DNA from: Blastocatellia bacterium | GTDB taxonomy: Bacteria > Acidobacteriota > Blastocatellia > HR10 | DNA length: 45,895 nt | Assembly (NCBI GenBank): GCA_035573895.1 | Contig: DATLZR010000002.1 | Location: 1-45,895 of the forward strand | Direction of reading: 5' to 3' | Shown: positions 4,966-34,853 of the stretch, in pieces | How the letters are laid out: each line of letters starts with the position of its first letter | How positions within the stretch are numbered: position 1 is the first letter of the stretch | Made by a program: the position numbers and the translations under genes | Notes under the pieces: generated by a model | Told to the model about the DNA's origin: nothing | The model's database searches: none | What the model saw: only the letters and a program-made list of their open reading frames with translations

Positions 4966-5003
4966 AGTGGTTGAGCCATTAGTCTATCCTCATTTGACGG
5001 ATA

Positions 5004-5024: not shown

Positions 5025-5028
5025 TGCT

Positions 5029-5420: not shown

Positions 5421-5566
5421 ATATCGCATAATTGCATAAGGCCATCCATGTTTTGTCCCCTTTTTCTTTTTCGTTCCCTGCACCTTTTCAGTCGCAAAAC
5501 CAGCCCCTTAAAGGCATAAAAGCGCATAGGATGTCTCCTTTTGTGCATTCTGTGCCCTCTTGTGGC

Positions 5567-9428: not shown

Positions 9429-11693
9429 ATGGCGGGCCATCGAGCCGGAAGAATGAGAGGAGGAGAACAGGGTTCAGGATCAGGTCGGTTCAGCCGGGAG
9501 TGGTTCCCGCTTCTCTTACCGATCAGTCTGGTCCTACCTTTACTCGGTGGAGATCCTCAGATCCCCCGACGACCGATCACTGCCGCGGGGGCGATTCAGG
9601 GTCAGGTTCGGGATGGACACGGGTCGCCGGTTCCGTTCGTTCAGATAACGCTCACTGCCCTCGGAGGAGAAAAGTCATATCGAACGGTGAGCACAGGGGA
9701 GGGGATTTTTCGGTTTTTCGATCTTGTGCCGGGAGAGTATGAGTTGCGCGGGGAACGCGAGGGCATTCGTCCTTTCATTCAACGACCAATCGTGGTGATG
9801 GCGGGCGAGGTCAAGACGCTTATTCTTACGGTCGAGTCTGAGCATCCAGCCCCGAGTCGAACGACGAGACTGCCCCGGCGCCCGACAGAAAAGATCGAGG
9901 GTGTTGTCGAAATAGGACCCCGCGAAGAACCAGAAGACGAACGGATTGTGCTCGAATCGAGACTTCCCCGGCGAGCGGAACCGGAATCAGGCGAAGAGAA
10001 GCCGACGGCCCCCCCACCCATCCCCTTCACCACACCTCGTGATCCTCCGCTGGGTGCGGCAGGGCCATCGCCGATCAAACCAAGAGAGCCAACTGACCCC
10101 GATTTTGTTTCCTGGCCCGACCGATGGCGCGTGGGATTTCCTCCCTGGGATCGGGAGACGGGCTATGAAGCGCCCTACACTCGCGGACGCTGGTGGGACC
10201 CCTTCAATCAGAACGTCCTCAAGGGAGATTATCCCCTCTTCGGCCAGCACGTCTTTTTCAATTTCACAGCGACAAGCGAGACGGTGGTCGAGGGGCGCCG
10301 ACTCTACGTGCCGAGCAATGCGAGCGCTGCCGAACCCCTGAGCGAGCCGTTCTTCGGACGGGGCGGCCAGTTCTTCCTCAACCAAAATTTCATCCTATCG
10401 GCCGCGCTCTTTCACGGGGACACGGCATTCAAGCCCGTAGACTGGCAGATGAAGGTCACCCCTGTGATCAATCTGAACTATCTGGTGACGCGCGAGACCG
10501 GTCTGGTCAACATTGATGTGCGTCGGGGCACAACCCGTTTCGATAGTCACTTCGCGTTCCAGGAACTCTTTGGCGAAGTCAAGCTGGCGGATGTGAGCCC
10601 GAAGTATGACTTCGTTTCCGTTCGGGTGGGCATCCAGCCCTTCATCAGCGATTTTCGCGGTTTCCTGTTCGTGGACAATCAGCCGGGCATTCGCTTCTTT
10701 GGCAACTGGGCATCGAATCTCTATCAATGGAACGTGGCGGCCTTCACGCTCCTGGAGAAGGACACCAACAGTCGGTTGAACACGGTCTTTGAATCCCGCC
10801 ATCAATACGTGATCATCGCCAATCTCTACCGGCAGGACTTCATCAAGAAAGGCTACACCATTCAGGGGAGCATCCATTATAGCGATGATCATGCCGGGCG
10901 ATCGGATGAGGGCGGACTTCATTTCGACAAAAACGGCTTTCTCGTTCGGCCCGCGGCTATCGGCAGCTTCACTCCGCATAATTTGAAGATCGGCTACCTG
11001 GGCATTGCTGGAGACGGGCACATCGGACGATTGAATGTCTCCCATGCCTTTTACCAGGCCCTCGGTCGGGATGATCGAAACCCCATTGCCGGGCGACCGA
11101 TCCGGGTGAATGCGCAGATGGTGGCGGCTGAACTTTCCGTTGACCGTGATTGGCTGAGGCTGAAGGGATCGTTTTTCTTCTCTTCGGGCGATAGCCGACC
11201 GCTCGATGATCGCGGCCGTGGGTTCGATTCGATCATTGACGCGCCGAATTTCGCCGGAGGGATTTTCGGCTTCTTCAACCGCCAGGGCATTCGGCTGACG
11301 GGAACGAATCTGATGCTGGTGGATCGAGATAGCTTGCTCCCGAGCCTCCGTAGCAGCAAGGACGAGGGTCAGGCCAATTTCGTCAATCCCGGCCTCTTTC
11401 TCTTTCACGTCGGGGCTGACGCCGAATTGACGCCCAAGCTGCGAGGATTCGTCAATGTGAGCGTTCTCAGATTTCATCGCACGGAGCCGCTCGAGTTGGT
11501 TTTGTTTCAAGCTCCGATTCGTCACGGCATCGGTGTGGATTACGGTCTCGGCGTTCTCTATCGGCCACCGCTCACGGAAAACATCGTCATCACGGCGGGC
11601 GCTTCGGCGCTCACACCATTTGCCGGATTCCGGGATATTTTCACGTCGAAGACTCTGCTCTCGACATTCGCTGCGGTGAGATTGACATTTTGA
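9429..11693 (+). CDS. Outer-membrane beta-barrel with N-terminal carboxypeptidase-regulatory-like domain
   Basis: The protein has 754 residues (an alternative ATG at 9453 gives 746). A hydrophobic signal segment (WFPLLLPISLVLPLLGG) is at about 25-41. Residues 54-135 form a carboxypeptidase regulatory-like beta sandwich (GAIQGQVRDGHGSPVPFVQ ... VPGEYELR). A proline- and charge-rich linker runs to about 225. The rest (about 255-754) alternates short polar and aromatic strands typical of a large barrel and ends in a C-terminal aromatic residue (AAVRLTF), as outer-membrane proteins do. It lies 62 bp upstream of the decahaem LVIVD cytochrome and is probably co-transcribed with it. It could be the pore partner that gives a cytochrome access to the outside, or simply a transporter or structural barrel. 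It has no plug domain or TonB box that I recognise. Confidence 0.72.
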   Translation: MAGHRAGRMRGGEQGSGSGRFSREWFPLLLPISLVLPLLGGDPQIPRRPITAAGAIQGQVRDGHGSPVPFVQITLTALGGEKSYRTVSTGEGIFRFFDLVPGEYELRGEREGIRPFIQRPIVVMAGEVKTLILTVESEHPAPSRTTRLPRRPTEKIEGVVEIGPREEPEDERIVLESRLPRRAEPESGEEKPTAPPPIPFTTPRDPPLGAAGPSPIKPREPTDPDFVSWPDRWRVGFPPWDRETGYEAPYTRGRWWDPFNQNVLKGDYPLFGQHVFFNFTATSETVVEGRRLYVPSNASAAEPLSEPFFGRGGQFFLNQNFILSAALFHGDTAFKPVDWQMKVTPVINLNYLVTRETGLVNIDVRRGTTRFDSHFAFQELFGEVKLADVSPKYDFVSVRVGIQPFISDFRGFLFVDNQPGIRFFGNWASNLYQWNVAAFTLLEKDTNSRLNTVFESRHQYVIIANLYRQDFIKKGYTIQGSIHYSDDHAGRSDEGGLHFDKNGFLVRPAAIGSFTPHNLKIGYLGIAGDGHIGRLNVSHAFYQALGRDDRNPIAGRPIRVNAQMVAAELSVDRDWLRLKGSFFFSSGDSRPLDDRGRGFDSIIDAPNFAGGIFGFFNRQGIRLTGTNLMLVDRDSLLPSLRSSKDEGQANFVNPGLFLFHVGADAELTPKLRGFVNVSVLRFHRTEPLELVLFQAPIRHGIGVDYGLGVLYRPPLTENIVITAGASALTPFAGFRDIFTSKTLLSTFAAVRLTF

Positions 11694-11755
11694 GACCGTG
11701 GAGGGCGTGACTTCGACGGGATGTGGAGAAGGGTTTCGCCGGAGAGGACGAAGAT

Positions 11756-14700
11756 ATGAGGCGAGCCATTGCATTAAAGGTCGGTGCGATGACATTGTTT
11801 GCCGGCGCGATCGTTTCGGCTGCCTTCGATTTGGATTCCACGCTTTCGGTGGGACAGCAGGCGAGGCTCTCGGATCAATCGGAGGAGGATGTCAAGGCCA
11901 AAAGCGCCGGATGCCTCCGTTGCCATCACCCTATGGATGCGCCCACGATGCACGAGTCGCCGGCGGTTCGTCTCGGCTGCGTGGATTGTCATGGTGGGGA
12001 TGCCACCGTTGAGGTACCGGCGGGAGCGAAACCGGGTGAGCCGGCGTATGAGGAGGCAAAGAAAAAAGCCCACGTTCATCCACGCTTTCCTCGTCAGTGG
12101 GGCAAGGACGCGACTCCGGCGCGGGCAGCTAATCCGGTTCGGTCCTACACACTGCTCAATCGCGAATCCCCCGAGTTCATTCGCTTCATCAATCCGGGGG
12201 ATTTACGGATCGCGCACCTGACCTGCGGGCAGAGCGGCTGTCATCCGAGCGAAGTTGCGACCGTGCGAAAGAGCATGATGGCTCATGGAGCGATGCTGTG
12301 GGGAGCGGCCCTCTACAATAACGGCTCCTTTCCGCTGAAAAATCCGCGCTTCGGAGAAGCCTACGGGTTAGACGGCACGCCGCAGCGGCTTCAGACCTAT
12401 CCGCCGCCGACCGAAGAGGAGATGCGTCGCAAGGGCGTGCTGCCCTATCTCGATCCGTTGCCTCGATGGGAAATCACTCAGCCGGGCAATATCCTTCGCG
12501 TCTTCGAGCGCGGCGGCCGTCGGCGACTGGAGGTCGGTTTGCCCGATCGGGAGGAAGAACCGGGTAAACCCGATAAAGGCCTCAGCCCGCGTGGGCTGGG
12601 CACGCTCAATCGAACCGATCCCGTCTTCCTCGGTCTGCAGAAGACGCGCCTGTTCGATCCGACGCTGTGGTTTCTCGGTACCAATGATCATCCGGGAGAT
12701 TATCGCTCCAGCGGATGTACGGCATGTCATGTCATCTACGCGAATGATCGGTTCGAGGCTCACTCCGGACCTTATGCACGGTTTGGCAATGAGGGGCGCA
12801 GTTTCAGCGCCGATCCGACGATACCCAAAAACGTCCCCGGCCATCCCATTCGTCATGTTCTCACCCGCGCCATTCCGTCCAGCCAGTGCATCGTCTGCCA
12901 CATCCATCCTGGGACAACCGTGACCAATAGCTACCTCGGCTATATCTGGTGGGATAACGAGTCCGACGGGGAGTTGATGTATCCCCGAGAGGAGCGGAAA
13001 CTGACGGCCAAACAAATTGATGAAATCCAGCGAGCCAATCCCGAAGGATCGGCAGTGCGCGGCCTTTGGTCTGATCCTGAGTTTCTCACCCGGCTCGTGG
13101 AACTGAATCCTCGATTGCGCCACAATCAATTCGCCGATTTTCACGGTCACGGCTGGGTCTTTCGCGCCGTCTACAAACGAGATCGAAAGGGACGATTACT
13201 GGATGCCGAGGGCCGCATCGTCGGCGAGGATGATCCGGACCGATTCAAGAAAGCCGTTCACCTGAAAGATATTCACCTCGAGAAGGGAATGCACTGCGTG
13301 GATTGCCATTTCGCTCAGGACAGTCACGGCAACGGCAAACTGTATGGAGAGGTGCGCAACGCCATCGAGATTGATTGCACGGATTGTCACGGGACGATCT
13401 ATCGTCCGGCGACGCTCGTGACGTCGGGACCGGCGGCTCCTCCGGGAGGAACCAATCTGGCGCGATTACGAACGCCCTTGGGGCAGCGCCGCTTCGAATG
13501 GCGCCGAGGACGACTCTTCCAGCGTTCGATGGTCGTGCCCGGTCTCGAATGGGAGGTCGTTCAAGTCCGCGACACAATCACCCCGGGTTCGCCTCATTAC
13601 AACGAGAAGTCACGACTGGCCAAGACGCTTCGCCGCGACGGCCAGCGGTGGGGCGATGTGCCGACATCCGAGACGGAGCTGGCCCATGCCAACAGCCGGA
13701 TGACGTGTTTCTCCTGTCACACAGCGTGGGTGACCAGTTGCTTCGGCTGTCACCTGCCGATGACAGCCAACGTAAAGAAGCCGATGCTTCATAACGAGGG
13801 GGAGGTTTTGCGGAACTGGACTTCCTACAACTTTCAAACGATCCGCGACGATATTTTCATGCTCGGACGCGATGGTACGGTGACGGGACGACGCATCGCC
13901 CCCATCCGTTCCGCGTGCGCCGTGCTGGTCAGTTCGCAGAATCAGAACCGGGAGTGGATCTATTCCCAGCAGCAGACCGTATCGGCGGAAGGTTACAGCG
14001 GTCAGGCGTTCAGTCCCTTCGTCCCTCACACGGTGCGGGCGAAGGAAACGAAAGTCTGCACTGACTGCCACCTATCGGCTGATAATGACAACAACGCCTG
14101 GATGGCGCAGGTGCTCATGCTCGGTACGAACATGGTGAACTTCCTGGGCCGCTATGTCTACGTCGCCGAGGGAAAGGAGGGCTTTGAAGCTGTGGTCGTC
14201 ACCGAACATGATGAACCGCAGGCGGTGATTGGGAGCACGCTGCACAAAATCGCCTATCCGACGAGCTATCGAAAACACATCGCTCGTGGCCGGCGCCTTC
14301 ACGAAGCCTATCACCATCCGGGCAAGGACGTTCTCGCTCTTCCGGGTCATGGGACGGAGGTGCTCAGTGTTCAACTGCGCGGGGAATATCTCTATGCCGC
14401 GACGGGGCGAGGAGGACTTCGCATCTACGATGTCGCGCAGATTGATCAGAAGGGGTTTTCCGAGCGTATCGTGACGGCTCCAGTCTCCCCGCTCGGACAA
14501 CGGTTCTACGTGAAAACGAAATACGCGACGGCTGTGGCCTCTCCTTCGACAATGGCCGTTGATCCCACGCGGCCTCATCGGCCCGAGAACGAAGAGGCCA
14601 TCTATCGTGATGACAAACAGCCGATTCATCCCCTTTATGCCTTTCTCTACGTGACCGATAGGGAGGAGGGCCTCATCGTCATCGGCAATCCTCCGGGGAG

Positions 14701-15694
14701 CGAGATGGCGAAGCGAGCGGGCGTGGGCGTTTCCACGCTACTTGACGGAAATCCCGAGAATAACTTCCTCACGCGAGCCGTCACGTTCAATCCCGGCGGG
14801 ATACTCTCCGGAGCCGTGAACATTACAATAGCCGGTGTGTACGCTTACATTTCCTGCGATCGGGGTCTGGTCATCGTGAGTCTCGACGATCCGCTCAACC
14901 CGCGCGTGGTGGCCGAGGTCGGTCCGCCGGCTATACGGCGGCCCCGCGCCGTAGCGGTTCAATTCCGCTACGCCTTCGTGGTTGATTCTGAGGGAATGAA
15001 GGTGATTGATGTGACATTCCCGGAGAAGCCGCGACCTGTTCCCGGAGCCGTCATCCCGCTTGCCGATGCGCGCAATATCTACGTGGCACGAACATACGCC
15101 TATATCGCGGCTGGTCGGGATGGACTTGTCATCGTTGACGTCGAACGGCCCGAGAAGCCCCGGCTCGATCAAGTCTATACGGCCGATGGCCAGATTAACG
15201 ACGCCAACGATGTGAAGATCGGTATGACCAATGCGAGCGTCTTCGCTTACGTCGCCGACGGCAGGAATGGATTGCGCGTGATTCAACTCATATCGCCGGA
15301 GACGACGCCTACGTTTCTCGGTTTCAGCCCGCGTCCATCACCGATGCTCATCGCCACCTACCACACGCATGGGCCGGCTCTCGCCCTGTCCAAGGGTTTA
15401 GATCGAGATCGCGCCGTTGACGAGAGCGGTAACCAGATCGCCGTCTTCGGTCGGCGTGGCGCGCGTCCCTTCAACCGCGAGGAGATGCAGCGGCTTTACC
15501 TCCGCGAGGGCCAACCTTATTTCGTCACGAATGATCCACCGGGTCCACCCATCTCTGGGACGGAAAAGGCATTAACGCCTATGAGGGGATTGCTTCACGG
15601 CGATCCCTCTCCCTGGGGTCTGGCTCTTGGTCTCATTTCGGCCATCCTCGCGTGCATCAGGATGAAACGAACTCTGACCCGCCAGGCCAAATAG
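11756..15694 (+). CDS. Decahaem cytochrome c fused to LVIVD-repeat propeller, C-terminal membrane anchor
   Basis: The start chosen is ATG 11756, preceded by GGAGAGGA; a GTG at 11723 in the same frame has no such site. The protein has 1312 residues. A signal segment covers about 8-24. Ten haem sites are visible: nine CxxCH (CLRCH, CVDCH, CTACH, CIVCH, CVDCH, CTDCH, CFSCH, CFGCH, CTDCH) and one CX4CH (CGQSGCH), all before about residue 790. From about 860 to 1190 come LVIVD repeats ([26 protein letters not shown]), which fold as a propeller. A hydrophobic segment near 1284-1303 followed by basic residues suggests an anchor. It follows the barrel gene by 62 bp. Likely a periplasmic or surface electron carrier; redox partner unknown. 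It has no recognised catalytic haem pattern of nitrite reductase or hydroxylamine oxidoreductase. Confidence 0.92.
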
Positions 15695-15933: not shown

Positions 15934-16326
15934 ATGGCGAGCAGGCACCAGGATTGGTTGCGGCAAGCGGAGAAGGATCTGGAGCATGCCCGACATGCGC
16001 TGGAGGATGCTGATCTGGAGTGGGCGTGCTTTGCCGCACAGCAGGCGGCAGAAAAGGCGGTGAAGGCACTGTATCAAAAACTCGGGGCCAGTGCCCGAGG
16101 CCATTCGGTTGCCATGTTGCTCTCCCAGCTTCCACCTGGTGTGGCGGTGGATCAAACGCTGATTGATAAGGCGAAGGTGCTGGACAAACATTACATCCCG
16201 CCGAGGTATCCCAACGCTTATCCGAGTGGCGCGCCCTTTGAGTATTACACTCATGAAGAGGCGGCGCGAGCGATCGAATATGCTGATGCGATCGTCGGAT
16301 TCTGTCGAGATCGAATACTTCCCTGA
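15934..16326 (+). CDS. HEPN-domain protein (toxin of a HEPN/MNT pair)
   Basis: The protein has 130 residues and is all-helical in appearance. It shows the HEPN family pattern: WLRQAEKDLEHARHALE at the start, then CFAAQQAAEKAVKALY, an arginine-glycine-histidine turn (ARGHSV), and the RYPN segment (PPRYPNAYP) near residue 90, followed by a final helix (EEAARAIEYADAIVGF). Such proteins are RNases or ribonucleoprotein-directed toxins kept in check by an adjacent nucleotidyltransferase. The MNT gene overlaps its 3' end by about 40 bp. The pair sits as an island between cytochrome genes, which suggests acquisition. The family call is secure; toxicity is inferred from context. Confidence 0.87.
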   Translation: MASRHQDWLRQAEKDLEHARHALEDADLEWACFAAQQAAEKAVKALYQKLGASARGHSVAMLLSQLPPGVAVDQTLIDKAKVLDKHYIPPRYPNAYPSGAPFEYYTHEEAARAIEYADAIVGFCRDRILP

Positions 16327-16669
16327 TCGCGAGGTCTGGGAAGAACTGCGGGCGTTTGCCGCCCAACTGCGACGGCAACATCCGGAGATCGAGAAGGTGC
16401 TTGTCTTTGGATCATTGGTGCGCGGCGATTGTGTCCCCGGCAGTGACGTGGATCTGCTGGTGGTGCTGCGCGAATCAAATGTGTCCTTTCTGGAAAGGAT
16501 CCCTCAATATACTCCCTCGAATTTTCCGGTAGCTGTGGACGTCTTCCCCTATACGTGCGAGGAATTGGAACACATGCTCAGGGAAGGCAACACTTTCATC
16601 CAGGAAGCCCTGGCCGAAGGAATAGAAGTGCCGAGCGAGGGGGGAAGCAGGGCGGACGAAGCTTCATGA
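16286..16669 (+). CDS. MNT-type nucleotidyltransferase (antitoxin of a HEPN/MNT pair)
   Basis: I place the start at ATG 16286, giving about 127 residues; ATG 16280 is equally possible. Longer starts upstream only read HEPN coding sequence in the wrong frame. The minimal nucleotidyltransferase motif is complete: GS, ten residues, then DVD (VFGSLVRGD ... GSDVDLLVVL), and a third acidic residue in VAVDVFPYT. In the characterised MntA/HepT type systems the MNT enzyme AMPylates the HEPN toxin; an intact GSX10DXD motif makes that mechanism possible here (inference). It overlaps the HEPN gene, so the two are co-translated. Confidence 0.87.
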   Translation: MRSSDSVEIEYFPDREVWEELRAFAAQLRRQHPEIEKVLVFGSLVRGDCVPGSDVDLLVVLRESNVSFLERIPQYTPSNFPVAVDVFPYTCEELEHMLREGNTFIQEALAEGIEVPSEGGSRADEAS

Positions 16670-17251: not shown

Positions 17252-18616
17252 TTAGCGGAAGTGTTGATGAAGCTCGCCCATCAGCGTGGCGAACCTGGTG
17301 GGTTCGAAGCGCTCCGGGCGTTCGAGATAATCGAGCAGCCTCGTGAGGGCCGATTGCACGGCGGGCTCGACGGCGACTCCTCTGGTTGAGGAGAGGGCGT
17401 CGAGCGACATCACCGCTTGTTCGGCGGCACGAACACCCGCGAATCCAATTCTCTCGCCGTCCCCGGAGATGTTCCGTAACAGGGCCTGCGTTACCTGATC
17501 CGTCAAGGGGGTGGTAACAATCTTACCGAGGATGCGTTCGACGATGGCCTGGGTCTGTTTGATCGCGGCGCTGATTTTCTCCCGCTCGACCGTTGGTTGG
17601 CTGAGGAGCATGCTGAGGGTGGCGATTTGCTCGTCAAGCGTCCTGCCCTCATCTGGGGCAATCACGCGCACGAGATGTCGAAAGACGGCGGCACGGGCTG
17701 TATTCCAGGGCGGACGTCCCGGCGCGTGACTGTAACCGCGACGTTGTCTCCAACTGGGTTCGCGCAGATCGTGGTGGCAACTGTAGCAATCGTACTCAGC
17801 GAATTCCGGCCAGGTGGGACTGGAGACGCGCCGGGCCAGCTGGTTCAAAGTCTCTCGCAGGGCGACGGCTTGTCCCACAGCCCAGGCAGTCAGGCCGAAG
17901 GCCTCGCGCTTGGGACGCGCTCCCTTCCAATTGTCCTCGCTCCGCCAGTGCGGCGGCATGGCGAGCGTGAAATACTCCAGCTCGAAGATGAGGTCGGGAT
18001 GGCCGGCGGCGATCAGCTCATGATTGACGGTCTTCTCCTCATCGCCCAGATGACAGGACAGGCAGAGTTCAGCCCGCCTGACGGGATGACGCGTGTCATA
18101 CATGCCGACGGCGACCGATTGTTCGTGCGTCCAGTCGCGGGTCGTGTGAGGCCCGAGCCATTTCTCGGCGGGGCCATGACAGCTTTCACAGCTCACGCCA
18201 TCGCTCAGATCGAACGTGCGAGCGCGACGCTCCGGTGGGACACTCAGGGCATGGCAGGGAAGGCAGCGCCGGCTCTGCTCCGGCTTCTCCTCCATCCCAA
18301 GATTTCGCGCGATCAATTGTGATCTTTCCGTGAGCAAAACCTGATAGGCTTTGGCGTGTTTGTCTTTGAGCACCCAGGTGGTGTACTCGTTCTGCTGGAT
18401 GCGACTTTCTCTGTCGGAGGCCGGAGTCACGGCGCCATGACAGGCCGTTGAACTGCAGGCTCCGGGGCCGGTGTATCGCGCCGGTAGCGTCTGGCCGTTG
18501 GCGACGGCCGAGGAAGAGGAATCGGGGGGAGCCGTCTGTTTGCGGATCAGGCTAAAATAAGCCGTGAGAAATGCCGCTGCCATCAGGCCCGCAAGGGCAA
18601 TTTTTTTCATGTTCAC
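17252..18616 (-). CDS. Pentahaem cytochrome c (cytochrome c554-like)
   Basis: The protein has 454 residues. An N-terminal hydrophobic helix (about 6-22) with lysines on both sides is a signal anchor. Five haem sites are visible: C54SSTACH (a CX4CH), C118LPCH, C143ESCHGP, C185LSCH and C277YSCHH. Distal histidines suited to bis-His ligation occur between them (HAKAY, HTTRDW, RHPVR, NHELIAAGHPDL). The order CESCHGPAEKW ... CLSCH ... GHP...FELEYF is characteristic of the c554-type multihaem family. The GTG at 18616 is 6 bases after GAGAGG, and the ATG at 18610 is 12 bases after, so GTG is the likelier start. It is transcribed towards the HEPN/MNT island. Role: periplasmic electron transfer; the donor cannot be inferred. 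Confidence 0.9.
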   Translation of the reverse strand: MNMKKIALAGLMAAAFLTAYFSLIRKQTAPPDSSSSAVANGQTLPARYTGPGACSSTACHGAVTPASDRESRIQQNEYTTWVLKDKHAKAYQVLLTERSQLIARNLGMEEKPEQSRRCLPCHALSVPPERRARTFDLSDGVSCESCHGPAEKWLGPHTTRDWTHEQSVAVGMYDTRHPVRRAELCLSCHLGDEEKTVNHELIAAGHPDLIFELEYFTLAMPPHWRSEDNWKGARPKREAFGLTAWAVGQAVALRETLNQLARRVSSPTWPEFAEYDCYSCHHDLREPSWRQRRGYSHAPGRPPWNTARAAVFRHLVRVIAPDEGRTLDEQIATLSMLLSQPTVEREKISAAIKQTQAIVERILGKIVTTPLTDQVTQALLRNISGDGERIGFAGVRAAEQAVMSLDALSSTRGVAVEPAVQSALTRLLDYLERPERFEPTRFATLMGELHQHFR

Positions 18617-19155: not shown

Positions 19156-20769
19156 ATGATTCCGTCATCGCTTGATCAAAGCGGTTCAAGTGCTTCGTCG
19201 GAGAGGCCGCCTGACCGCGGTGAAGAGAAAGGGGGCCCGGGCGGTGAGCTTCTCACACCGGATGACCTTTCGGCCTATCCGATTTTCCACGAAGTTCCCC
19301 GGAAGCAACTGGAGCGGCTCTTCGAGTGGAATGAGCGGGCTGTTGTGCGTCGGCGGTTTCGTCCCGGCGAGATCGTCTGTCGTCAGGGGGACTACGGCTC
19401 GACGGCCTTTTACATCGTGCGGGGGCGGGTCGAAGTCTTCATCACGAGCCCCATTGCCCATGCCAGGAGTCAGAAGCAGGAGGGGAAGAGAGGCTGGCTC
19501 TCGGGACGGGTTCGGAAATTTGCCACGTTGCTCCTGTCGGCTCGGGAGGACCCGCGTGAGGAAGAAGAGTTTCGCCGCTATATTCCGATTGATGCGCCCA
19601 TTGACCTGGCGATGGATGAACCGGTTGGCCAGTTGCATGATGGGGACCTTTTTGGTGAGATGACGTGCTTGAGCTTCTATCCTCGCTCGGCGACGGTGCG
19701 TGCCGTGACCGACTGCGAGATGCTGGAGATGGAGCGAAATGTCCTCGAGCTGCTCAAGAAGCAGTCGAAGACGTTTCGGGAGAAGCTGGAGCGCGACTAC
19801 CGGCAGCGGGCGCTCGACACGCATCTGCGGAGCGTGCGAGAGTTTGCTTCATTGCCCGACGATTTCTTGGACGAGTTACGGGCGCGGGTCGAGCTTGTCT
19901 CTTATGATCCCGGCGAGGTGATCTGTCGTCAGGGAGAGCCGGCCGATAGTTTCTATCTCATCCGCCTCGGCTTTGTACGCGTGAGTCAACAACATCCCGG
20001 AGGAGAAATTGTCCTGGCCTATCTCTCTCGGGGGCAGTATTTCGGCGAAATCGGTCTTTTAAGCGGAGGGGTGCGGACGGCGACCTGCACAGCGCTGGAT
20101 CATGTCGAGGTGGTGCGCCTGCGCAAGGACGACTTCGTCGCTCTCATCGAGCGATTCCCTGCGATTCGAGCCCAGCTCGAAGCCGAGGCTCAGCGGCGGA
20201 TCGAGGCCACTCAGCGGCTGACGCGTCAGGTTACGGACCTTCCCCTGGACGATTTCCTCCAGCAGGGACTGATGAACGCGCAGAATGTCCTGCTCATTGA
20301 TCTCGAGCGCTGCACCCGGTGCGATGAGTGCGTGAAAGCCTGTGCTGCAGCTCATGACGGAGTGACGCGATTGATTCGTGACGGGCTCCGCTATGACAAA
20401 TATCTCGTGGCCACATCCTGCCGACAATGCACCGATCCGGTCTGTATGATTGGGTGTCCGGTGGGGTCAATCCGTCGGCGAGAATCCCTGGAGATCGTCA
20501 TCGAGGACTGGTGCATCGGATGCGGGAAGTGCGCGGCGCAATGTCCGTATGGCAATATCAATATGCATGAGTTTGAGGTGGCGCGTCGGGGTCCCTCCGA
20601 GCGCATGACCGTTCCCCTTCCGGTCATTGAGCGAAAAGCGGTGATCTGCGATCTCTGCGCGCCCCTGGGGGAGCCAAGCTGTGTTTATGCGTGTCCCCAT
20701 CAGGCGGCCCTGCGCGTCAATCCCCGGGAATTCTTCTTTGCCCAGGGGGAGCACGCACGCCCCCTATGA
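19156..20769 (+). CDS. Fusion of two cyclic-nucleotide-binding folds with a four-cluster [4Fe-4S] ferredoxin
   Basis: The protein has 537 residues and no signal peptide, so it is cytoplasmic. Two CAP_ED/cNMP-binding folds are visible: about 42-200 (REGIVC-like FRPGEIVCRQGDYGSTAFYIV, then GEMTCLSFYPRSATVRA) with an inserted charged segment near 101-155, and about 230-335 (DPGEVICRQGEPADSFYLI, then GEIGLLSGGVRTATC). Both have the GE...L...RTAT type phosphate cassette. The C-terminal third has sixteen cysteines in four clusters: C386-389-392-396, C422-425-430-434, C453-456-459-463 and C498-501-509-513, the pattern of DMSO-reductase B / NrfC-type subunits. It is followed by a membrane b-type-like protein and a decahaem cytochrome in one plus-strand set. 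Inference: an electron-entry subunit whose activity is gated by a nucleotide or similar ligand. Start M19156 lacks a strong ribosome-binding site. Confidence 0.9.
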   Translation: MIPSSLDQSGSSASSERPPDRGEEKGGPGGELLTPDDLSAYPIFHEVPRKQLERLFEWNERAVVRRRFRPGEIVCRQGDYGSTAFYIVRGRVEVFITSPIAHARSQKQEGKRGWLSGRVRKFATLLLSAREDPREEEEFRRYIPIDAPIDLAMDEPVGQLHDGDLFGEMTCLSFYPRSATVRAVTDCEMLEMERNVLELLKKQSKTFREKLERDYRQRALDTHLRSVREFASLPDDFLDELRARVELVSYDPGEVICRQGEPADSFYLIRLGFVRVSQQHPGGEIVLAYLSRGQYFGEIGLLSGGVRTATCTALDHVEVVRLRKDDFVALIERFPAIRAQLEAEAQRRIEATQRLTRQVTDLPLDDFLQQGLMNAQNVLLIDLERCTRCDECVKACAAAHDGVTRLIRDGLRYDKYLVATSCRQCTDPVCMIGCPVGSIRRRESLEIVIEDWCIGCGKCAAQCPYGNINMHEFEVARRGPSERMTVPLPVIERKAVICDLCAPLGEPSCVYACPHQAALRVNPREFFFAQGEHARPL

Positions 20770-20823: not shown

Positions 20824-21867
20824 ATGATCATTGACCGCACGCATCGGCGATGGATAATCGCCTGCCTGCTCATTGTTGTGGTTGGCCTGATCATGTTCAT
20901 TCCCTATGCCGCATGGGCGGTGCCCGGTCCACGAGGAGGGAGCGCCCTCGGTCTTGCGTATGGCATTACGGGTACGGCGTTCATCGTCGTCTGCGCCCTG
21001 CTTGGAGCCCGTAAGAAAGTTCCCACCTGGCGCGTCGGTCGAGCGGAGACGTGGGTGCGGGCGCACCTGTGGCTGGGAATAGCGAGCCTCCCTTTGATTC
21101 TCTTTCACAGCGGATTTCGTTTTGGCGGGACAATAAGCACCATTCTAATGGTCCTCTTTCTCCTGATCGTGGCTAGCGGTATTGTCGGGATGCTGCTCCA
21201 GCACTACCTCCCCCGAAAGATGTTGAACGAGCTGCCGATGGAGACGGTGTACGAGGAGATCCCCCATGTGCTCGATCAGCTTCGACTGGAGGCCGGGCTC
21301 CTCGTCTGGAGCGCCTGTGGATCGCTTGTGGAGGAAGGACTCTCGCTTCAACGGGTGCTCAGGACCGTGAAAGAGACCCTCGATCATCATCGCAAGGCAG
21401 CAGATGCGGGGCAGCCGCCGGGTCCGTGGCCTCCACTCCTGACGGCGTTTTACCGGGAACTCGGTCTCCGTCGTCTGTCTCTGGAAGAGGTGCGCGATCT
21501 CATGGATGAAATGATCAAAGGCCGCTCGACGGAGGTCGCGGAGATGCCGCCATCCGACGGCCTCCGGCTGAAAGAGTTCTACCGGGATGTCCTGAAGCCG
21601 TATCTGGCGGACTCCTGGGATCGGAATGGGCCGCTCAGCGATCCCCGCCGATGCGATCTGGCTTTTTCCCGTCTCAGGGCGACGGTATCACCGGCCGTGC
21701 ACGGTATTGTCGCGGATCTCTCCGAACTGTGTCTGGAGCGAAGGCAACTGGAGCGTCAGCGGCAGATGCATCGGTGGCTGCAGGGATGGTTGTTCGTCCA
21801 CGTACCGCTTTCGATGGCGCTTCTCGTGCTAACGGCGATCCACGCAATCATGAGCCTGCGGTATTAA
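20824..21867 (+). CDS. Membrane b-type-cytochrome-like electron-transfer protein
   Basis: The protein has 347 residues with about five membrane helices: about 10-32, 40-60, 80-97, 101-122 and 318-345. Histidines sit where haem b ligands would lie: in HLWLGIASLPLILFHSGFRF (third helix) and near the end, WLFVHVPLSMALLVLTAIH. A large soluble, charged loop (about 130-310) is between helices four and five. The gene follows the ferredoxin fusion by 54 bp and precedes the membrane-anchored decahaem cytochrome by 92 bp, so it may move electrons from the cytoplasmic iron-sulphur protein across the inner membrane. It shares the general layout of ferric-reductase-like and NrfD/Cyt-b partners but I cannot assign a named family. 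Confidence 0.75.
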   Translation: MIIDRTHRRWIIACLLIVVVGLIMFIPYAAWAVPGPRGGSALGLAYGITGTAFIVVCALLGARKKVPTWRVGRAETWVRAHLWLGIASLPLILFHSGFRFGGTISTILMVLFLLIVASGIVGMLLQHYLPRKMLNELPMETVYEEIPHVLDQLRLEAGLLVWSACGSLVEEGLSLQRVLRTVKETLDHHRKAADAGQPPGPWPPLLTAFYRELGLRRLSLEEVRDLMDEMIKGRSTEVAEMPPSDGLRLKEFYRDVLKPYLADSWDRNGPLSDPRRCDLAFSRLRATVSPAVHGIVADLSELCLERRQLERQRQMHRWLQGWLFVHVPLSMALLVLTAIHAIMSLRY

Positions 21868-21959: not shown

Positions 21960-23459
21960 ATGGCTCGACCACGGACACAAAAAACGCTGGCGCGGCGGAT
22001 TGACCGGGACTATTTCAAGAAGCAGCATCCCTTCCGCCGTTGGCGGAGGATTCTCTCCTATACTGGTGTTGGAGTCTCAATTGGAGCTGTCATCCTCATT
22101 GCGCTTTTTCGCCGGGAAGATCTCTACATGAACGGGCCGGTGGCAACCGCGCACCAACTCTTCGCCCGCGATTGTGTTCTGTGTCATCAGGGGCAAGCGG
22201 GAGCCGATCACGTCCCGGTATCGCCTGAGGGAACAAGGGGAGCTCAATCGGGGCTCGAACGAGCGGCGTCCGTTTCAGTTGATCGGAGCTGGAGGTTCTG
22301 GCGAGACGTGACTGACAGCGCTTGCGTGCCCTGTCATGCTGCACCCCGACACCATGTCAATGAAACGTTCGCGCCGGGGTGCAACGGCTGTCATGAGGAG
22401 CACAAAGGGCGTGCCATCCTCTCACGCGTTGACGACCGTTTCTGCCTTCAGTGCCATGCTGACCTGCGAACGACCACCGGGAGGATGGACGTTGTCCTGG
22501 AAGGAGGGAGGCGCATAACTTCCTTTTCTCTGGACCATCCGGAATTTGCCGTTGCGGTGAGAGGGGATCGTCAGATTGTTCGTCGCCGCCTCGATGATCG
22601 GGAGAAAGTGAGCGACACGACCCCTATCGAGTTGAACCACGCGGTGCATCTCAAGCCCGCTCTTTCAGGACCGGAGAAACAACCGGTTCAGATGAGGTGC
22701 GGCGATTGTCATTACGCGGACTGGTCGGGTGCCTACATGCAACCGATTCAGTACGAGCGGCACTGCATGGCCTGTCATCTGCTGGAATTTGACGCTCGAT
22801 TTCAGCCGAGCCCTCGTCGGAAGGAAGAAGCTCTGGCGGCTTATCGGGCGGGACGGTTCGCTGAGTACGTTGCCGAGCATCCTGATCAATACCCGGTCGT
22901 GCCACATGGCGATCCCTCGATGATCCGAACGTTTTTGCAGGATCGGTATGCCGAATACCTCATGCAACACCCCGATGTGGCTGGCCGCGGCGAGGTTCGG
23001 ATTGAAGGCCGATTGCCACGACGACCGCTCTACAAACAGTTGCCGGTGACGGCGCGGGCGTGGGTGGATGAACAGGTTCGTATTGCCGAGACGCTTCTGT
23101 ATCGTAAGACCTGTCGGGAATGCCACCGGGTAGTAGAGAGACCGGGGGAACTGGCTCAGATTGTTCCTCCTCAGATCCCGGCCCGATGGTTTCCTCACAG
23201 TCGGTTCAGTCACGAGACTCATCGTGAAGTAAGCTGCCTCGCCTGCCATTCTGCTGCCCGGACGAGTCAGACCACGCGCGATATTCTCGTTCCCGGCATT
23301 GCTCTGTGCCGCTCCTGTCACGCACCGGGAAAGGCGCGTGCTGACTGCGTGGAATGTCACTTCTATCACAGCAAGCAGGATCGGGAAGACTTCAATGGCC
23401 CGTTCACGATTGAGGAGATCACGCGGCATCGGAGTCCGGTATCATCAGGTCAAAAATAG
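21960..23459 (+). CDS. Membrane-anchored decahaem cytochrome c
   Basis: ATG 21960 follows GGGAGAAAACG; an upstream in-frame ATG at 21651 would overlap the previous gene and is rejected. The protein has 499 residues. The N-terminus is positively charged, with one membrane helix at about 31-50, so the rest is periplasmic. Ten CxxCH sites are visible: CVLCH, CVPCH, CNGCH, CLQCH, CGDCH, CMACH, CRECH, CLACH, CRSCH and CVECH. Many isolated histidines (HVNETF, HAVHLK, HETHREV, FSHET) can provide the sixth ligands. It is the last gene of the set beginning at 19156. Role: accepts electrons from the b-type-like membrane protein and passes them to periplasmic partners, perhaps the pentahaem or decahaem LVIVD cytochrome. 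Confidence 0.92.
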   Translation: MARPRTQKTLARRIDRDYFKKQHPFRRWRRILSYTGVGVSIGAVILIALFRREDLYMNGPVATAHQLFARDCVLCHQGQAGADHVPVSPEGTRGAQSGLERAASVSVDRSWRFWRDVTDSACVPCHAAPRHHVNETFAPGCNGCHEEHKGRAILSRVDDRFCLQCHADLRTTTGRMDVVLEGGRRITSFSLDHPEFAVAVRGDRQIVRRRLDDREKVSDTTPIELNHAVHLKPALSGPEKQPVQMRCGDCHYADWSGAYMQPIQYERHCMACHLLEFDARFQPSPRRKEEALAAYRAGRFAEYVAEHPDQYPVVPHGDPSMIRTFLQDRYAEYLMQHPDVAGRGEVRIEGRLPRRPLYKQLPVTARAWVDEQVRIAETLLYRKTCRECHRVVERPGELAQIVPPQIPARWFPHSRFSHETHREVSCLACHSAARTSQTTRDILVPGIALCRSCHAPGKARADCVECHFYHSKQDREDFNGPFTIEEITRHRSPVSSGQK

Positions 23460-28758: not shown

Positions 28759-30447
28759 TCAAGCAATCCGGATGGGATCCTCGATCAAGCGAGATTCGAT
28801 CTCACGACCTTCTGGCCTATACCTCGGGCCACTTGTGTCCGTGTCTACCTTCTGCCACTTCCGGGGAACCTTTTTGATCCCAATGGGGAAGATCGTAAGA
28901 GCCCCTTCTTTGCTCAGATGGAGGCGGAGGAAATTCTTATAGTCCTGGATCCGCAGCGACGAGAAAGCTTCATTGGCATGTCTGCCGAAGATATTCAGCG
29001 ACACAAACAAGTACAGCCCCATAATGAAAGAACCAACAAGCCATCCGCCAGTAAACGTTATGATCGCTGTGAGAATAAAATGACAGACCGAATGAGGGAC
29101 AAATTCGAAGGCCTGTACGCTCACACAATTTCCGATCCAGGCGACAACTAACGCTGCTCCGAGATGAACTATAGCATGAATGATTCCAGCCGCCCACCTA
29201 TAGATCTTATTGTGCGTATCGGTGAAAAGAATAAATCCCGCCACGATCACAAATAGCCAGACGATGGCCGAGGGGCTGCGAACCAGGTCGCCAAGTGCGC
29301 TCCATACAGCGCCGATCAAATTTGTGAACTCGTAGAGACGATGCGGCATGCTCCAGTTGAGCGCGGTATACAGGATTCCGGGCATGATGCCGAACCAAGG
29401 ATTTGGGACCAGGAAAAAGAGATTTCGAAGCGATAGGCATCGCGACACGTTTCGGCTTGGGAATTCAGCTTTTAACCGGAATCGGCGTTTCTTCCCATCC
29501 GACCAGTATTCGATTTCGTCCACGTTCTCGCCGTGCGTTGGGTGAAGGAATGCTCCACCGCCGCCGGCGATGATGAGGTGAATCTGACCATCATCGGATT
29601 CGTGTCGCCGATAGTGGTGGATGTCGCCCGTGAGCTTAAGGACGACCCTCGCCCCCTGTTGGGCGATGAGTTTTCGCTCAAGATAGGCCAAATTATTTTC
29701 CAGGCGCGGATCGTAGATGTTGGCATAGATCCAATCTGGCTTGGGCGTGCAGAGGATGACACGGTCGCCGGATTTCATCTGGCGAGCGACGTTCTGAAAG
29801 TACTCAAGCTGCGGTGTGTCAATATCGGCTTCCAGTTGAATATCAACTCCGAGGAGCCACCAGCGGTGCGGGAGCTTGAGCGCGAAATAACTGCGCGTTT
29901 GGAAAGTGCGCCACCCACTCCATCGCCTTCGGGGATACCTCTGGCAGAATAACCGCGTGAAACTGACCAGACCGTCGTACCAGTCATGATTGCCCGGGAT
30001 TGCATAGAGGTGAGGAGAGGATTGGTCATGGGTCTGTGGCTCAGGGAAAGCGGCCTGATACGGCGCGACCAGTCGTTCCTGATAGTTCTCGCGACTGGCT
30101 TCGGGATAGACTTCATCTCCACCCATGATGAGGATGTCGCCCCGCCGCGTTTCGTATTCTTCGCCCTGCGAGCCTCTCAGCGGCAGCCTCTCTCTCGCCA
30201 GCAGGCACGCCACCGTATATGTCGGGTTCCATCCATCTCCCAGATCGGCCACATAGTCAATCCAGAGTTCGCTCAGATGACTATAATCAAACACCTCCTG
30301 AGGGGCCACCAGTGACTCGATCACACGATAGTCCACCCTGGAACCGAGCAACAACGAAGTGGCCACCTGGATGCCGGTCTTTATGAGCGGAATCGGATCG
30401 TACCAATTAACCATGTCTATCTTCCGCGGATCGTTTTGCTTTGGCAT
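28759..30447 (-). CDS. Membrane-anchored calcineurin-type metallophosphoesterase
   Basis: The start is ATG 30447, which follows GGGAGG at about 10 bases; the longer in-frame ATG at 30522 lacks a good site. The protein has 562 residues. The metallophosphoesterase motifs appear: DLGDGWN, MGGDEVYPEA, GNHDWYDG (N-H-D), and TGDIHHYRRH (G-D-x-H), so the dinuclear metal site is complete. The C-terminal third has about four or five hydrophobic helices (about 380-530). It has no close functional name; membrane phosphoesterases of this layout may cleave lipid or nucleotide phosphates. It is divergent from the second propeller kinase. Confidence 0.85.
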   Translation of the reverse strand: MPKQNDPRKIDMVNWYDPIPLIKTGIQVATSLLLGSRVDYRVIESLVAPQEVFDYSHLSELWIDYVADLGDGWNPTYTVACLLARERLPLRGSQGEEYETRRGDILIMGGDEVYPEASRENYQERLVAPYQAAFPEPQTHDQSSPHLYAIPGNHDWYDGLVSFTRLFCQRYPRRRWSGWRTFQTRSYFALKLPHRWWLLGVDIQLEADIDTPQLEYFQNVARQMKSGDRVILCTPKPDWIYANIYDPRLENNLAYLERKLIAQQGARVVLKLTGDIHHYRRHESDDGQIHLIIAGGGGAFLHPTHGENVDEIEYWSDGKKRRFRLKAEFPSRNVSRCLSLRNLFFLVPNPWFGIMPGILYTALNWSMPHRLYEFTNLIGAVWSALGDLVRSPSAIVWLFVIVAGFILFTDTHNKIYRWAAGIIHAIVHLGAALVVAWIGNCVSVQAFEFVPHSVCHFILTAIITFTGGWLVGSFIMGLYLFVSLNIFGRHANEAFSSLRIQDYKNFLRLHLSKEGALTIFPIGIKKVPRKWQKVDTDTSGPRYRPEGREIESRLIEDPIRIA

Positions 30448-30775
30448 AGTCTCGAACCTCCCGTCTGTGAAGGAAAGGGAATTACTCCCGAGCTTATTCT
30501 GTAGGCCCGGAGTTTGGACCATTCTTCATCAGGGCTCGCAAAACGTCACAGCTTCCGGTGGCGGACCAAGAAAAGAACTGGAATTTGTGAAGCGTCCGAC
30601 CAGCCATCGGTCTTCCCCTTAATATTCGGATAAGTACTCCTGCACAGCCCTCACCACCACGAAAAGGATCAAGAGGTATCTTCAAAGCAGAAATAGCACA
30701 GTGCCAAACCGACTTTCAATCTTCCCCAATGGGTTTTTGTAAGTCTGGAGATAGGGACTTGTGTTGTGGTAATTT
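30448..30775. other. Divergent intergenic region upstream of the second kinase
   Basis: This 328-bp region should carry the promoters of the metallophosphoesterase and the kinase. No convincing -35/-10 pair or copy of the heptamer site found in the left block was seen here. Confidence 0.4.
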
Positions 30776-33700
30776 GTGGGTGTGTGTTGCCGTCTGCCGC
30801 AAGGAATTGCCCGGGCCCGGATCGGGTGTTGGCTCGGTCTGTTGCTGGCGATGCCGTTTATCGTTCGGGCTGAGCGATTGCCGATCAAGACCTACACCAC
30901 GGCCGACGGCCTGGCGCATGACCGGATTAGACGGATCGTCCGGGACTCGCGTGGGTTCCTCTGGTTTTGTACCGTTGACGGATTGAGCCGTTTCGATGGC
31001 TTTCGCTTAATAAGTTACGGCAGAGAACATGGGCTCCCCCATACAGTCGTTACTGATCTGGTGGAGACTCGGCACGGCCAGTACTGGGCAGCGACCTTCG
31101 GAGGCGTGTGCCGATTCAACCCCCGAGGCCGCCCGACGTCCGTCGTCCGTAGCTTGGTGCCGAAGGCTCAGAATCACCAGCCACAAGCAAACGAGCACGC
31201 CCAAGGCGTGCGCTCCCAGACGGTCAAACGCCAGAGGACGACGGGCCAACCGTTGTTCACCGTATATCCTGTTGGCAATGACACGGCCACAAATCACGTC
31301 GAGGTTCTCTACGAAGACCGTGCTGGACGGCTGTGGGCCGGAACCTGGGGTGGTCTGTTCTGTCTGGATGATCCTCACGGGCAGGGGGCGTTTCGTCGCG
31401 TTCCGCTGAATCACCCGTCCAGATCGGGAAACCTGCAGGTACGGGCGCTGCTCGAAGACCGAGACGGGAGCCTCTGGATTGCGACGGAGTTCGGCCTGGT
31501 GCGTCGCTTGCCCGATGGCCGGATGATCCATTACGAAGTTCTCGTCCACTCGTTGCTCGAAGATCGTGAGGGGCGATTGTGGCTTGGAGGAGACCGCGAG
31601 GTGTTTGTGCTCAAGCCGACGCCGGTGACTACTATTGGTGCAGGCGACCGGTTCCCGTGGCGAAGTCTGACCGATCACCGCACGGGCGGGCCAATGCTAT
31701 TGCCGATCAATCCCGGCCAAGCCGTTCGATTCTCCGCTGCTCATGAGTGGCCCCGCGACCGTATTCTGGATCTGCATGAGTCTTCCGATGGGCGGATCTG
31801 GATCGCCGTTGATTACGCCGGCCTGATCGAATTTGACGGCCGCAGGTTTCGCCGTTACACCACCGCCCACGGCTTGAGTAGCAACTGGCTCGCTTCAATC
31901 GCCGAAGACCGCGAGGGCAACCTGTGGCTGGGGACTTTTGCCAACGGCGCGATGAGACTGGCCCGGCAGGGCTTCTTGAGCTATCTCGAAGCCGATGGGT
32001 TGGAGAATGCGCGTATTCTTTCGATTTTTGAGAATCAGGCGCGCCAGTTGTGCGCCGTCAGTGATCGTGGGTTCTTCCATTGGCTTGACCGTGGGCGATT
32101 CAAGGCAATCCAACCTCGCGTACCCGAACCGATGAGAATGTCCTGGTACCACGTTCCGCTGCAGGATCATACGGGGCAGTGGTGGGTGCCTACCGACGCT
32201 GGCCTGTATCGCTTCCCGAAGGTGAACCGCATCGAGGAACTCGCACGGGTGCGTCCCCAGGCCGTCTATACCGCCCGTGACGGGTTAAGTGGCAATGATG
32301 TGTTCCGCCTGTTTGAGGACTCGCGAGGAGATCTATGGATCGGCACGAGTTCTGATACACGGGACCGATTGACGAGATGGGACCGGTCCACCCAGACGTT
32401 CCATCGCTACACGGAAGCGGATGGACTGCCGCCCTTCCACACGCCGAGCGCCTTTTGTGAGGATGCTGCCGGGAATCTCTGGATCGGGTTCTGGCAAGGC
32501 GGTATAGCACGCTACGCGGCCGGCCGATTCACCTTTTTGACCACGGCCGACGGGATTCCTCCGGGTGAAATTACGGCCTTATTCCGCGATCGCGTCGGTC
32601 GGCTCTGGGTTGGAATCAACGGCGGTGGTCTGGCCCGCATAGAGAATCCCGAGGCAGATCGTCCACGACTGGTTACCTACACGACTGCCCAGGGGCTGAC
32701 CAGTCATAATGTACGGTGCATCACGGAAGATCAGTGGGGACGTCTCTACATCGGGGCTGGGCGAGGCGTGACCCGACTTGACCCGAAAAGTGGCCGCCTG
32801 AAGCATTTCACCACCGCCGACGGACTGGTCAATAGCTATGTGAACGTCGCCTTCCGCGACCGTCATGATCGGCTCTGGTTTGGCACGTTACAGGGCATCT
32901 CCCGGTTCACTCCCGAAGTGGACCAACCGGAGGAGCCGCCGCCGGTGTGGATCAGCGGGCTGCGCATTGCCGGTGTCCCACATCCGGTCTCCGAGTTGGG
33001 AGAAACCGAGGTGCTGGGGCTCGAACTCGAACCGAACCAGAATCGTCTTGAAATTGACTTCGCCAGCCTCAGCTTCGGCGTCGGCGAGACGCTGCGCTAC
33101 CAGTACAAGCTCGAGGGCGCTGATGAGGATTGGAGCGCGCCGACCGATCACCGGACGGTGAACTACGTGAATCTCACGCCGGGAACCTATCGCTTTCTCG
33201 TGCGAGCCGTGAGCGCCGACGGTCTCACCAGCCCAGCGCCAGCGACGGTGACCTTCAGGATTCTCCCACCCGTCTGGCAGCGGTGGTGGTTTTTGATGCT
33301 GGTAGGGGTGATCACAGGGTGGTCCGTTTATGCTCTTCACCGGTATCGTGCCCGGCGACTGGTGGAGCTGGAGCGCGTGCGCACACGGATTGCCGCCGAT
33401 CTCCATGACCACATCGGGACAGGGCTCTCGCAGATGGCGCTGTTGAGCGAAGTCGTCAAGCAGCAGATTGGAACTCCGTCCGAGAAGGTGGAACAGTTGC
33501 TCTCGGACATCGCCAGAACGGGCCGGGAGTTAGTCGAAGCGATGAGCGATATCGTCTGGGCGATTGACCCTCGACGCGATGATCTGGGAAACCTTATTGC
33601 TCGCGTGCGCCAACTGGCCAGTGACCTCTTCGACCCCCAGGGGATTCGCTGGGAGCTTCAAACGTCCGAGGAACTTGAGAGAATCAAGCTCACTCCAGAT

Positions 33701-33997: not shown

Positions 33998-34205
33998 AAA
34001 GCTCGTTCAGGACGTCAGGCTGTCCTCAATCTGTTGGGTTGGAGGGAATCACCCAGGACGAGGAAACCACGTTCTTTCGGGTCGTTTGTTTCAGGGGCTC
34101 TTTTGAGGAGGAGCTTATCGTCTCCAGGTGTCGCATGACCATGCGATTGCCGAAGCGAACGAGGTGGGATAGCATAGGACCTCAGCTAAAAGCACAGGAA
34201 TGTGT

Positions 34206-34853
34206 ATGCCCGCCGACCAGCCAATCCGTGTCGCTGTCGTTGAAGACCAGCGACTCATGCGCGAAGGCTTGCGCCTGCTCATTGACGGCAGCCCCGGTTA
34301 TCGTTGCGTGGGTGCCTTCGGTTCGGTGGAAGAAGCGCTCCGCGTGATTGACCGGGAGGTGCCTGAGGTGATGCTGCTGGACATTGAGTTGCCGGGAATG
34401 TCGGGTTCTGAGGGCGTCCGCCTGCTGAAAGAAAAATACCCCGGTATTCAAATTCTCATGCTCACGATCTATGATGAGGATGATCGCGTGTTCGAATCAA
34501 TCTGCAACGGAGCGTGTGGCTACTTGCTGAAGAAGACGCCGCCAGCGCGGCTGCTTGAGGCCATTCGGGAGGCTCACGAGGGCGGCTCGCCCATGACGCC
34601 GGAGATTGCTCGCAAAGTGGTCACCCTCTTTCAAAAAATCGGGCCGCCAGAAAAACTTGACCAACAACTGACCCCCCAGGAGGTTCGGTTGCTGAAGCTG
34701 CTGGCGCAGGGTCATAGCTACCAGGCCATCGCCGACCAGCTTCATGTCAGCATCAACACCATCCGCGAGTACATCCGCCGCGTCTACGACAAGCTCCACG
34801 TTCACTCCAAATCCGAGGCCGTCAGCAAAGCCCTCCGCAGTCGAATTATTTAG
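34206..34853 (+). CDS. NarL/FixJ-family response regulator of the second module
   Basis: The start is ambiguous: ATG 34200 sits directly after AGGA, ATG 34206 has a better 6-base spacing. The latter gives 215 residues. The receiver domain has the acidic pair E-D in VAVVEDQRLM and the phosphoacceptor aspartate (D61 counted from ATG 34200) in VMLLDIELPGMSG, then LTIYDEDD and YLLKK. A LuxR helix-turn-helix follows (LTPQEVRLLKLLAQGHSYQA, then LHVSINTIREYIRRVYDKL). The last residues match the other regulator. The partner is the upstream propeller kinase. No copy of the 21-bp heptamer site was found in front of it. Confidence 0.93.
   Translation: MPADQPIRVAVVEDQRLMREGLRLLIDGSPGYRCVGAFGSVEEALRVIDREVPEVMLLDIELPGMSGSEGVRLLKEKYPGIQILMLTIYDEDDRVFESICNGACGYLLKKTPPARLLEAIREAHEGGSPMTPEIARKVVTLFQKIGPPEKLDQQLTPQEVRLLKLLAQGHSYQAIADQLHVSINTIREYIRRVYDKLHVHSKSEAVSKALRSRII

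Follow-up and report, generated by a model that had tools for sequence, protein, structure and literature searches.

A tandem cyclic nucleotide-binding ferredoxin encoded with a putative transmembrane electron conduit

P0001 is a 537-residue protein that joins two cyclic nucleotide-binding (CNB) domains to a four-cluster ferredoxin domain and heads an operon with genes for a candidate membrane cytochrome b and a decahaem cytochrome c. It is encoded in a 45,895-nucleotide stretch of Blastocatellia bacterium DNA (the window, meaning the whole stretch analyzed). We suggest, with a probability of roughly 0.55, that P0001 is a cyclic nucleotide-sensing Fe-S electron-entry subunit of a transmembrane conduit, and that its CNB domains gate electron flow post-translationally. 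Known cyclic nucleotide control of bacterial respiratory chains runs mainly via transcription, through CRP. If our reading is correct, a ferredoxin with its own nucleotide pockets would let a second messenger switch respiration or extracellular electron transfer directly, and it would be useful in engineering electro-active cells. Full-text word matching in the open-access literature found no description of this family.

Architecture of P0001 and its phosphate-binding cassettes

The reading frame of P0001 is open over 537 residues (ORF analysis) and contains the following features.

19156 to 20769, forward strand: P0001, CNB-CNB-4x[4Fe-4S] protein, 537 aa (ORF, Pfam, sequence inspection)
19282 to 19755, forward strand: CNB1, aa ~43 to 200 (Pfam; AlphaFold2 strands and helices)
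19456 to 19620, forward strand: CNB1 insert between β4 and β5, aa 101 to 155 (alignment, AlphaFold2)
19642 to 19704, forward strand: phosphate-binding cassette 1, GDLFGE(168)MTCLSFYPR(177)SATVRA (alignment, motif)
19819 to 20190, forward strand: CNB2, aa ~222 to 345 (Pfam, AlphaFold2 model, Foldseek)
20032 to 20094, forward strand: phosphate-binding cassette 2, GQYFGE(298)IGLLSGGVR(307)TATCTA (alignment, motif)
20278 to 20730, forward strand: four-cluster ferredoxin domain with 16 Cys, aa ~375 to 525 (Pfam, alignment, motifs)

The Pfam model cNMP_binding (PF00027) matched P0001 with an E value of 1.8e-42; the match falls into three stretches, CNB1 being split by the insert. The CNB fold was identified both by Pfam and by Foldseek, which matched PKG and PKA R. 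Several Fer4 models matched within residues 416 to 517. The cluster cysteines form the four motifs of a four-cluster ferredoxin (386, 389, 392, 396; 422, 425, 430, 434; 453, 456, 459, 463; and 498, 501, 509, 513), and all 16 are kept in 58/58 aligned homologues. Therefore, the 16-Cys pattern is far beyond chance. The Pfam matches and the cysteine conservation confirm the fusion of two CAP_ED folds with a sixteen-cysteine domain that the initial annotation had read from the DNA.

The Fe-S domain is nearest to the HydN/HycB/DmsB type (E values: HydN, 1.3e-16; DmsB, 1.2e-10; NrfC, 5.8e-7), and its earlier label of NrfC/DmsB type was a fair one. P0001 scored below the curated full-length cut-offs (DmsB, 41.7 versus 214; NrfC, 29.1 versus 377.6), and it is therefore of this type rather than a member. 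HydN, HycB, DmsB, and NrfC are four-cluster subunits of the DMSO-reductase type, with four 4-Cys motifs in the same order as in P0001. We know of no CNB domains in these matched subunits. NrfC has a known Tat signal, whereas P0001 is predicted to be cytoplasmic because inspection of its N terminus revealed neither a twin-arginine motif nor an evident signal peptide.

An AlphaFold2 model of P0001, built with 31 aligned sequences and containing neither clusters nor ligand, had a mean pLDDT of 75. It has two CNB folds, a disordered stretch at residues 102 to 137, and an Fe-S half of modest or lower confidence. The best Foldseek matches in the PDB were the tandem CNB domains of PKG I-beta with cGMP, Bcy1, and PKA R. 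Like P0001, these proteins have two consecutive CNB folds with E-x8-R cassettes. However, their output is a kinase, whereas that of P0001 is a ferredoxin, and P0001 has in addition the long insert in CNB1. The whole-chain TM-scores were low, and we take this to mean that the two CNB domains are arranged differently in the P0001 model.

The CNB1 insert sits between strand 92-95 and strand 157-160, and residues 102 to 137 have a pLDDT below 50. Every aligned member that has a CNB1 carries a variable stretch at this site, with 39 to 106 residues over segment 95 to 160. Judging from the model and the alignment, the insert is a loop found family-wide, mostly disordered and lying outside the cassette, and neither source gave any sign that it enters cassette 1. 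The charged insert noticed at about 101 to 155 thus exists, but nothing in the model or the alignment indicated that it alters binding; as a family-wide β4-β5 loop away from the cassette, it was rejected as a pocket modifier for the main reading.

Both cassettes have the canonical E-x8-R (E168/R177 and E298/R307), with the spacing of PKA R. In the 20-member clade around P0001, E168, R177, and R307 are conserved at 100% and E298 at 95%; the mean majority frequency over 240 CNB columns in this clade is 64%. By alignment, the cassette Glu and Arg are among the most conserved CNB positions of the clade. Loss of the pocket residues in both folds, which the initial annotation had taken to mean purely structural domains, is not what we found in P0001.

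The family was found in Planctomycetota, Acidobacteriota, Omnitrophota, Binatia, Proteobacteria, and others in a single scan, and its cassettes vary. In Pirellula-type and several same-phylum lineages, the Arg positions hold H, Q, V, W, or Y, or the second Glu is replaced by L. In some lineages, proteobacterial members among them, one or both cassettes are gone although the operon is retained. Therefore, cyclic nucleotide binding is not essential to the family, and a structural or protein-contact role can be enough to maintain the CNB folds. Parsimony on a tree of the Fe-S domain only, in which many deep forks are open, gave about five cassette changes for CNB2 and about four for CNB1.

A different change interrupts cassette 2, where about 102 to 110 residues with FHA features lie between the Glu and the Arg in Acidobacteriota and in two Binatia/Deltaproteobacteria members.

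L016, L017, L018, L019, L020, L021, and L022 (Acidobacteriota); L025 and L028: FHA or FHA-like insert in cassette 2

The Acidobacteriota count rests on seven members with CNB2 sequence. The L025 insert was recognized as FHA by Pfam; that of L016 is FHA by motifs and was modeled as a confident all-β unit. A fold search with an FHA-inserted homologue had CNB proteins alone among the matches listed, and the FHA call therefore rests on Pfam (L025), motifs (L016), and the all-β model. In the alignment, the FHA-inserted Acidobacteriota members also have an 11-residue insertion in cassette 1. L016 has an additional C-terminal FHA, and a Ser/Thr kinase is encoded near L020. The family offers a testable series on one conduit, with pockets intact, FHA-interrupted, or lost.

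The operon, its neighbors, and homologous loci

The genes around P0001 encode a set of putative electron carriers.

9429 to 11693, forward strand: porin-like outer-membrane protein candidate with a CarboxypepD_reg domain; barrel assigned by inspection
11756 to 15694, forward strand: giant 9-CXXCH cytochrome with LVIVD repeats and partial ExtM similarity
17252 to 18616, reverse strand: P0004, divergent cytochrome c554-like multihaem protein (Pfam, homologous loci)
20824 to 21867, forward strand: P0002, membrane dihaem b-type cytochrome candidate (His conservation, TM/charge pattern)
21960 to 23459, forward strand: P0003, membrane-anchored decahaem c-type cytochrome with 10 CXXCH and an N-terminal TM segment; the ORF can start earlier

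The P0002 gene begins 54 bp downstream of P0001, and the P0003 gene is next. P0002 has about five helices and weakly resembles Ni_hydr_CYTB. Four of its histidines are near-invariant among homologues (H81 and H95, 43/43; H326 and H340, 42/43), a conservation that suggests two stacked b haems. The positive-inside pattern predicts that the N terminus and the long loop at 127 to 321 are in the cytoplasm. Ten CXXCH motifs are present in 34/36 P0003 homologues; the other two have 7, and both are contig-edge fragments. Upstream of P0001 lies the divergent P0004 gene, and further upstream are the genes for the porin-like protein and the giant cytochrome, which are paired in relatives. The giant cytochrome is also linked to CNB-FeS homologues in other genomes.

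Among 57 homologous loci, a P0002 (cytB) homologue is encoded in 48, and in 43 it is directly adjacent on the same strand. Many of these contigs end early, and within them c554 was found in 26 loci, the porin in 14, and the giant cytochrome in 11. Among these loci there is conserved linkage of a putative outer-membrane barrel and a candidate outer multihaem cytochrome with the inner-membrane module. In two loci (L103 and L041), the CNB-FeS protein is fused to cytB in a single ORF, a fusion that speaks for electrons passing directly between P0001 and P0002. From its gene content, the P0001 cluster looks like an electron conduit from the cytoplasm to the cell surface.

This layout resembles two kinds of known system. 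In CISM/Dsr-Hmc-Qrc modules, a 16-Cys Fe-S protein, a membrane subunit, and a multihaem cytochrome are encoded together, and the P0001 operon has the same gene trio. However, P0002 had no NrfD match in Pfam, so it does not qualify as an NrfD/PsrC-type subunit. To our knowledge, nucleotide-sensing domains are new to this scheme. With porin-cytochrome systems and Geobacter Ext, the cluster shares a porin candidate and a giant multihaem cytochrome with partial ExtM similarity. However, the giant cytochrome scored far below the curated NCBIfam cut-offs (ExtM, 78 versus 800; ExtN and ExtO, 27 versus 200), and it bears LVIVD repeats. We are aware of no cyclic nucleotide-type gate described for these conduits.

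The cultured soil bacterium Sphingobium herbicidovorans has a homologous operon on plasmid pMSHV, where the whole conduit operon is present. Its CNB-CNB-FeS protein (WP_231568103.1), which RefSeq names merely "cyclic nucleotide-binding domain-containing protein," is followed by cytB and a decahaem cytochrome c, and its giant cytochrome is 50% identical to that of the window. Three features differ: the CNB-FeS protein has a fused N-terminal flavin oxidoreductase, the decahaem cytochrome has an FHA-like N terminus (by eye), and the operon includes an SpdA/CpdA-like phosphoesterase. A CNB-FeS homologue was seen on large plasmids in twelve Sphingobium records (pMSHV and 11 other replicons), suggesting horizontal spread.

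Relatives also carry putative electron-donor modules. A NuoE-NuoF fusion protein is encoded in eleven loci, where the N terminus of the CNB-FeS protein is NuoG-like, with 2Fe-2S and 4Fe-4S sites; in these members the CNB pair lies between the entry and exit clusters. The L101 and Sphingobium members have a fused N-terminal flavin oxidoreductase (Pyr_redox) domain. These modules make NAD(P)H the probable donor in the relatives that have them. P0001 has neither a NuoG-like nor a flavin oxidoreductase domain, and its genome has three Complex1_51K genes, away from the P0001 locus. Next to the CNB-FeS-cytB fusion of L103, one ORF (10713 to 13988) has an FHA domain and eight CXXCH together with Fer4 and a pyridine-nucleotide oxidoreductase domain; L104 has a comparable ORF, also with eight CXXCH, at 3108 to 6437.

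Other genes lie in and around the conduit cluster. Between the giant cytochrome and c554 genes, a HEPN-domain ORF (15934 to 16326, forward strand; Pfam, 9.9e-35) overlaps an MNT-type nucleotidyltransferase ORF (16163 to 16669, forward strand; 1.9e-10); they are a probable HEPN/MNT toxin-antitoxin pair. Two look-alike sensor kinases are at 5567 to 8818 (reverse strand) and 30776 to 33997 (forward strand), the second with Reg_prop, Y_Y_Y, HisKA_3, and HATPase domains. Beside each is a response regulator-like ORF (4300 to 4965, reverse strand; 34200 to 34853, forward strand). These are apparently paralogous two-component pairs flanking the cluster.

Cyclases and phosphoesterases

The genome of the window has one class III cyclase, an FHA-GAF-cyclase on another contig, with KYIGD and DTVNLAAR motifs. 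In class III cyclases, the KYIGD lysine is linked to the selection of adenine. A class III cyclase was found in 14/14 same-phylum genomes with both cassettes intact, versus 66/99 in the phylum sample. However, a clear one was also present in 14/17 same-phylum genomes with degraded cassettes, so that cyclase presence does not separate the two groups (14/14 versus 14/17; Fisher P = 0.23) and was dropped as a discriminator. In a rough comparison uncontrolled for phylogeny, the enzyme was commoner in P0001-positive genomes (29/32, with two lacking a match and one having a marginal match alone) than in P0001-negative ones (59/91; P = 0.006). Weak matches in three Acidobacteriota genomes, MAGs of unstated completeness, are suggestive only.

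We consider physical linkage more telling than genome-wide presence. In 5/34 same-phylum loci, a cyclase is encoded no more than 18 kb from the CNB-FeS gene, where 0.64 such loci are expected; the P value of about 5e-4 is a rough guide, as the genomes are related and not phylogenetically independent. In L113, the cyclase gene is the last in a co-directional array of 16 kb that includes the conduit genes. Of the five linked cyclases, one (L112/G015) neighbors a degraded-cassette member. Outside the 34-locus set, a Planctomycetaceae MAG (L014) has a cyclase about 5 kb downstream, in which not all catalytic motifs were recognized. On pMSHV, where both cassettes of the CNB-FeS protein are intact, a metallophosphoesterase gene begins about 20 nt after the decahaem gene; its product is related to SpdA (E = 1.9e-38) and CpdA (8e-22), with scores below their curated cut-offs. 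In the window itself, about 5 kb from the operon, a 587-aa ORF (28759 to 30522, reverse strand) has a metallophosphoesterase-like motif, GNHDW, by eye and no Pfam match.

The initial annotation had proposed that a nucleotide directly gates respiratory electron flow, without transcription. Its electron-transfer part is strongly backed by the context of dihaem b, decahaem c, porin-like, and giant multihaem proteins, and its nucleotide part gains from the cyclase and phosphodiesterase genes linked in some relatives. The gating itself we infer.

Proposed mechanism and alternatives

In the mechanism we favor, electrons would enter the four [4Fe-4S] clusters of P0001 from a cytoplasmic donor. In relatives this would be the NADH-oxidizing NuoEF/NuoG-like module or the fused flavin oxidoreductase; in the window's genome it would be a separately encoded protein. 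Electrons would then pass to the b haems of P0002, across the membrane to P0003, and on to an external acceptor by way of c554 and the porin/giant-cytochrome pair, or they may run in the reverse direction for uptake. The ligand of CNB1 and CNB2 would be a 3',5'-cyclic nucleotide, with cAMP the most likely. Binding may move the C-terminal helix of CNB2 (residues ~335 to 357), which leads into the ferredoxin. This shift would change the position of the ferredoxin or its docking on P0002, and electron entry would thereby be gated. A point against this mechanism is that CNB domains can also bind other ligands, such as nucleosides in trypanosomatid PKA R, a type of entry among the Foldseek PDB matches.

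The CNB domains might instead bind a cyclic nucleotide but control ferredoxin assembly, stability, or membrane localization rather than moment-to-moment flow. Cassette conservation and the cyclase/phosphoesterase linkage apply equally to such a role; assembly and inhibition are what CNBs serve in PKA R and encapsulin shells, and both PKA R structures and an encapsulin 2B model were among the matches to P0001. However, the CNB pair of the NuoG-like members is inside the electron path, between NADH-side clusters and exit ferredoxin, which fits gating at least as well, and we regard control of assembly as unlikely. We give a similarly low probability to CNB folds that are structural or protein-docking and sense no nucleotide, their cassettes being kept for folding. 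The conduit persists in Pirellula-type, proteobacterial, and other lineages without the cassette Glu or Arg, and an FHA or FHA-like insert splits cassette 2 in Acidobacteriota/Binatia relatives, as such a role would allow. However, the cassette Glu and Arg are near-invariant in the P0001 clade while most CNB columns vary, and their lineage-specific loss shows that the fold does not need them.

That P0001 is a Crp/Fnr-family regulator, with an Fe-S sensor, of the adjacent cytochrome genes is very improbable. Its CNB domains do score to CRP (3e-23), but the Pfam scan found no helix-turn-helix domain in P0001, and the four-cluster ferredoxin and the fusions to cytB, NuoG-like, and flavin oxidoreductase modules point to electron transfer. 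A Crp/Fnr transcription factor was rejected because no C-terminal HTH family was matched.

Alongside the nucleotide-gated entry subunit that we prefer for P0001, a broader reading is tentative and falls somewhat short of even odds. P0001 may belong to an undescribed multi-phylum conduit family whose entry subunit is a direct target of second messengers, and in which both the sensor input and the donor side are exchangeable. The input would be intact cyclic nucleotide pockets in the P0001 clade and an FHA or FHA-like insert in the second cassette of others, with loss elsewhere; in some Acidobacteriota, the FHA insert and a neighboring Ser/Thr kinase might supply a phospho-signal instead of a nucleotide. 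The donor side would be NuoEF/NuoG-like, a flavin oxidoreductase, or none. Apart from its bearing on this family, an FHA domain nested inside a CNB phosphate-binding cassette is an unusual nested-domain event and is worth separate study.
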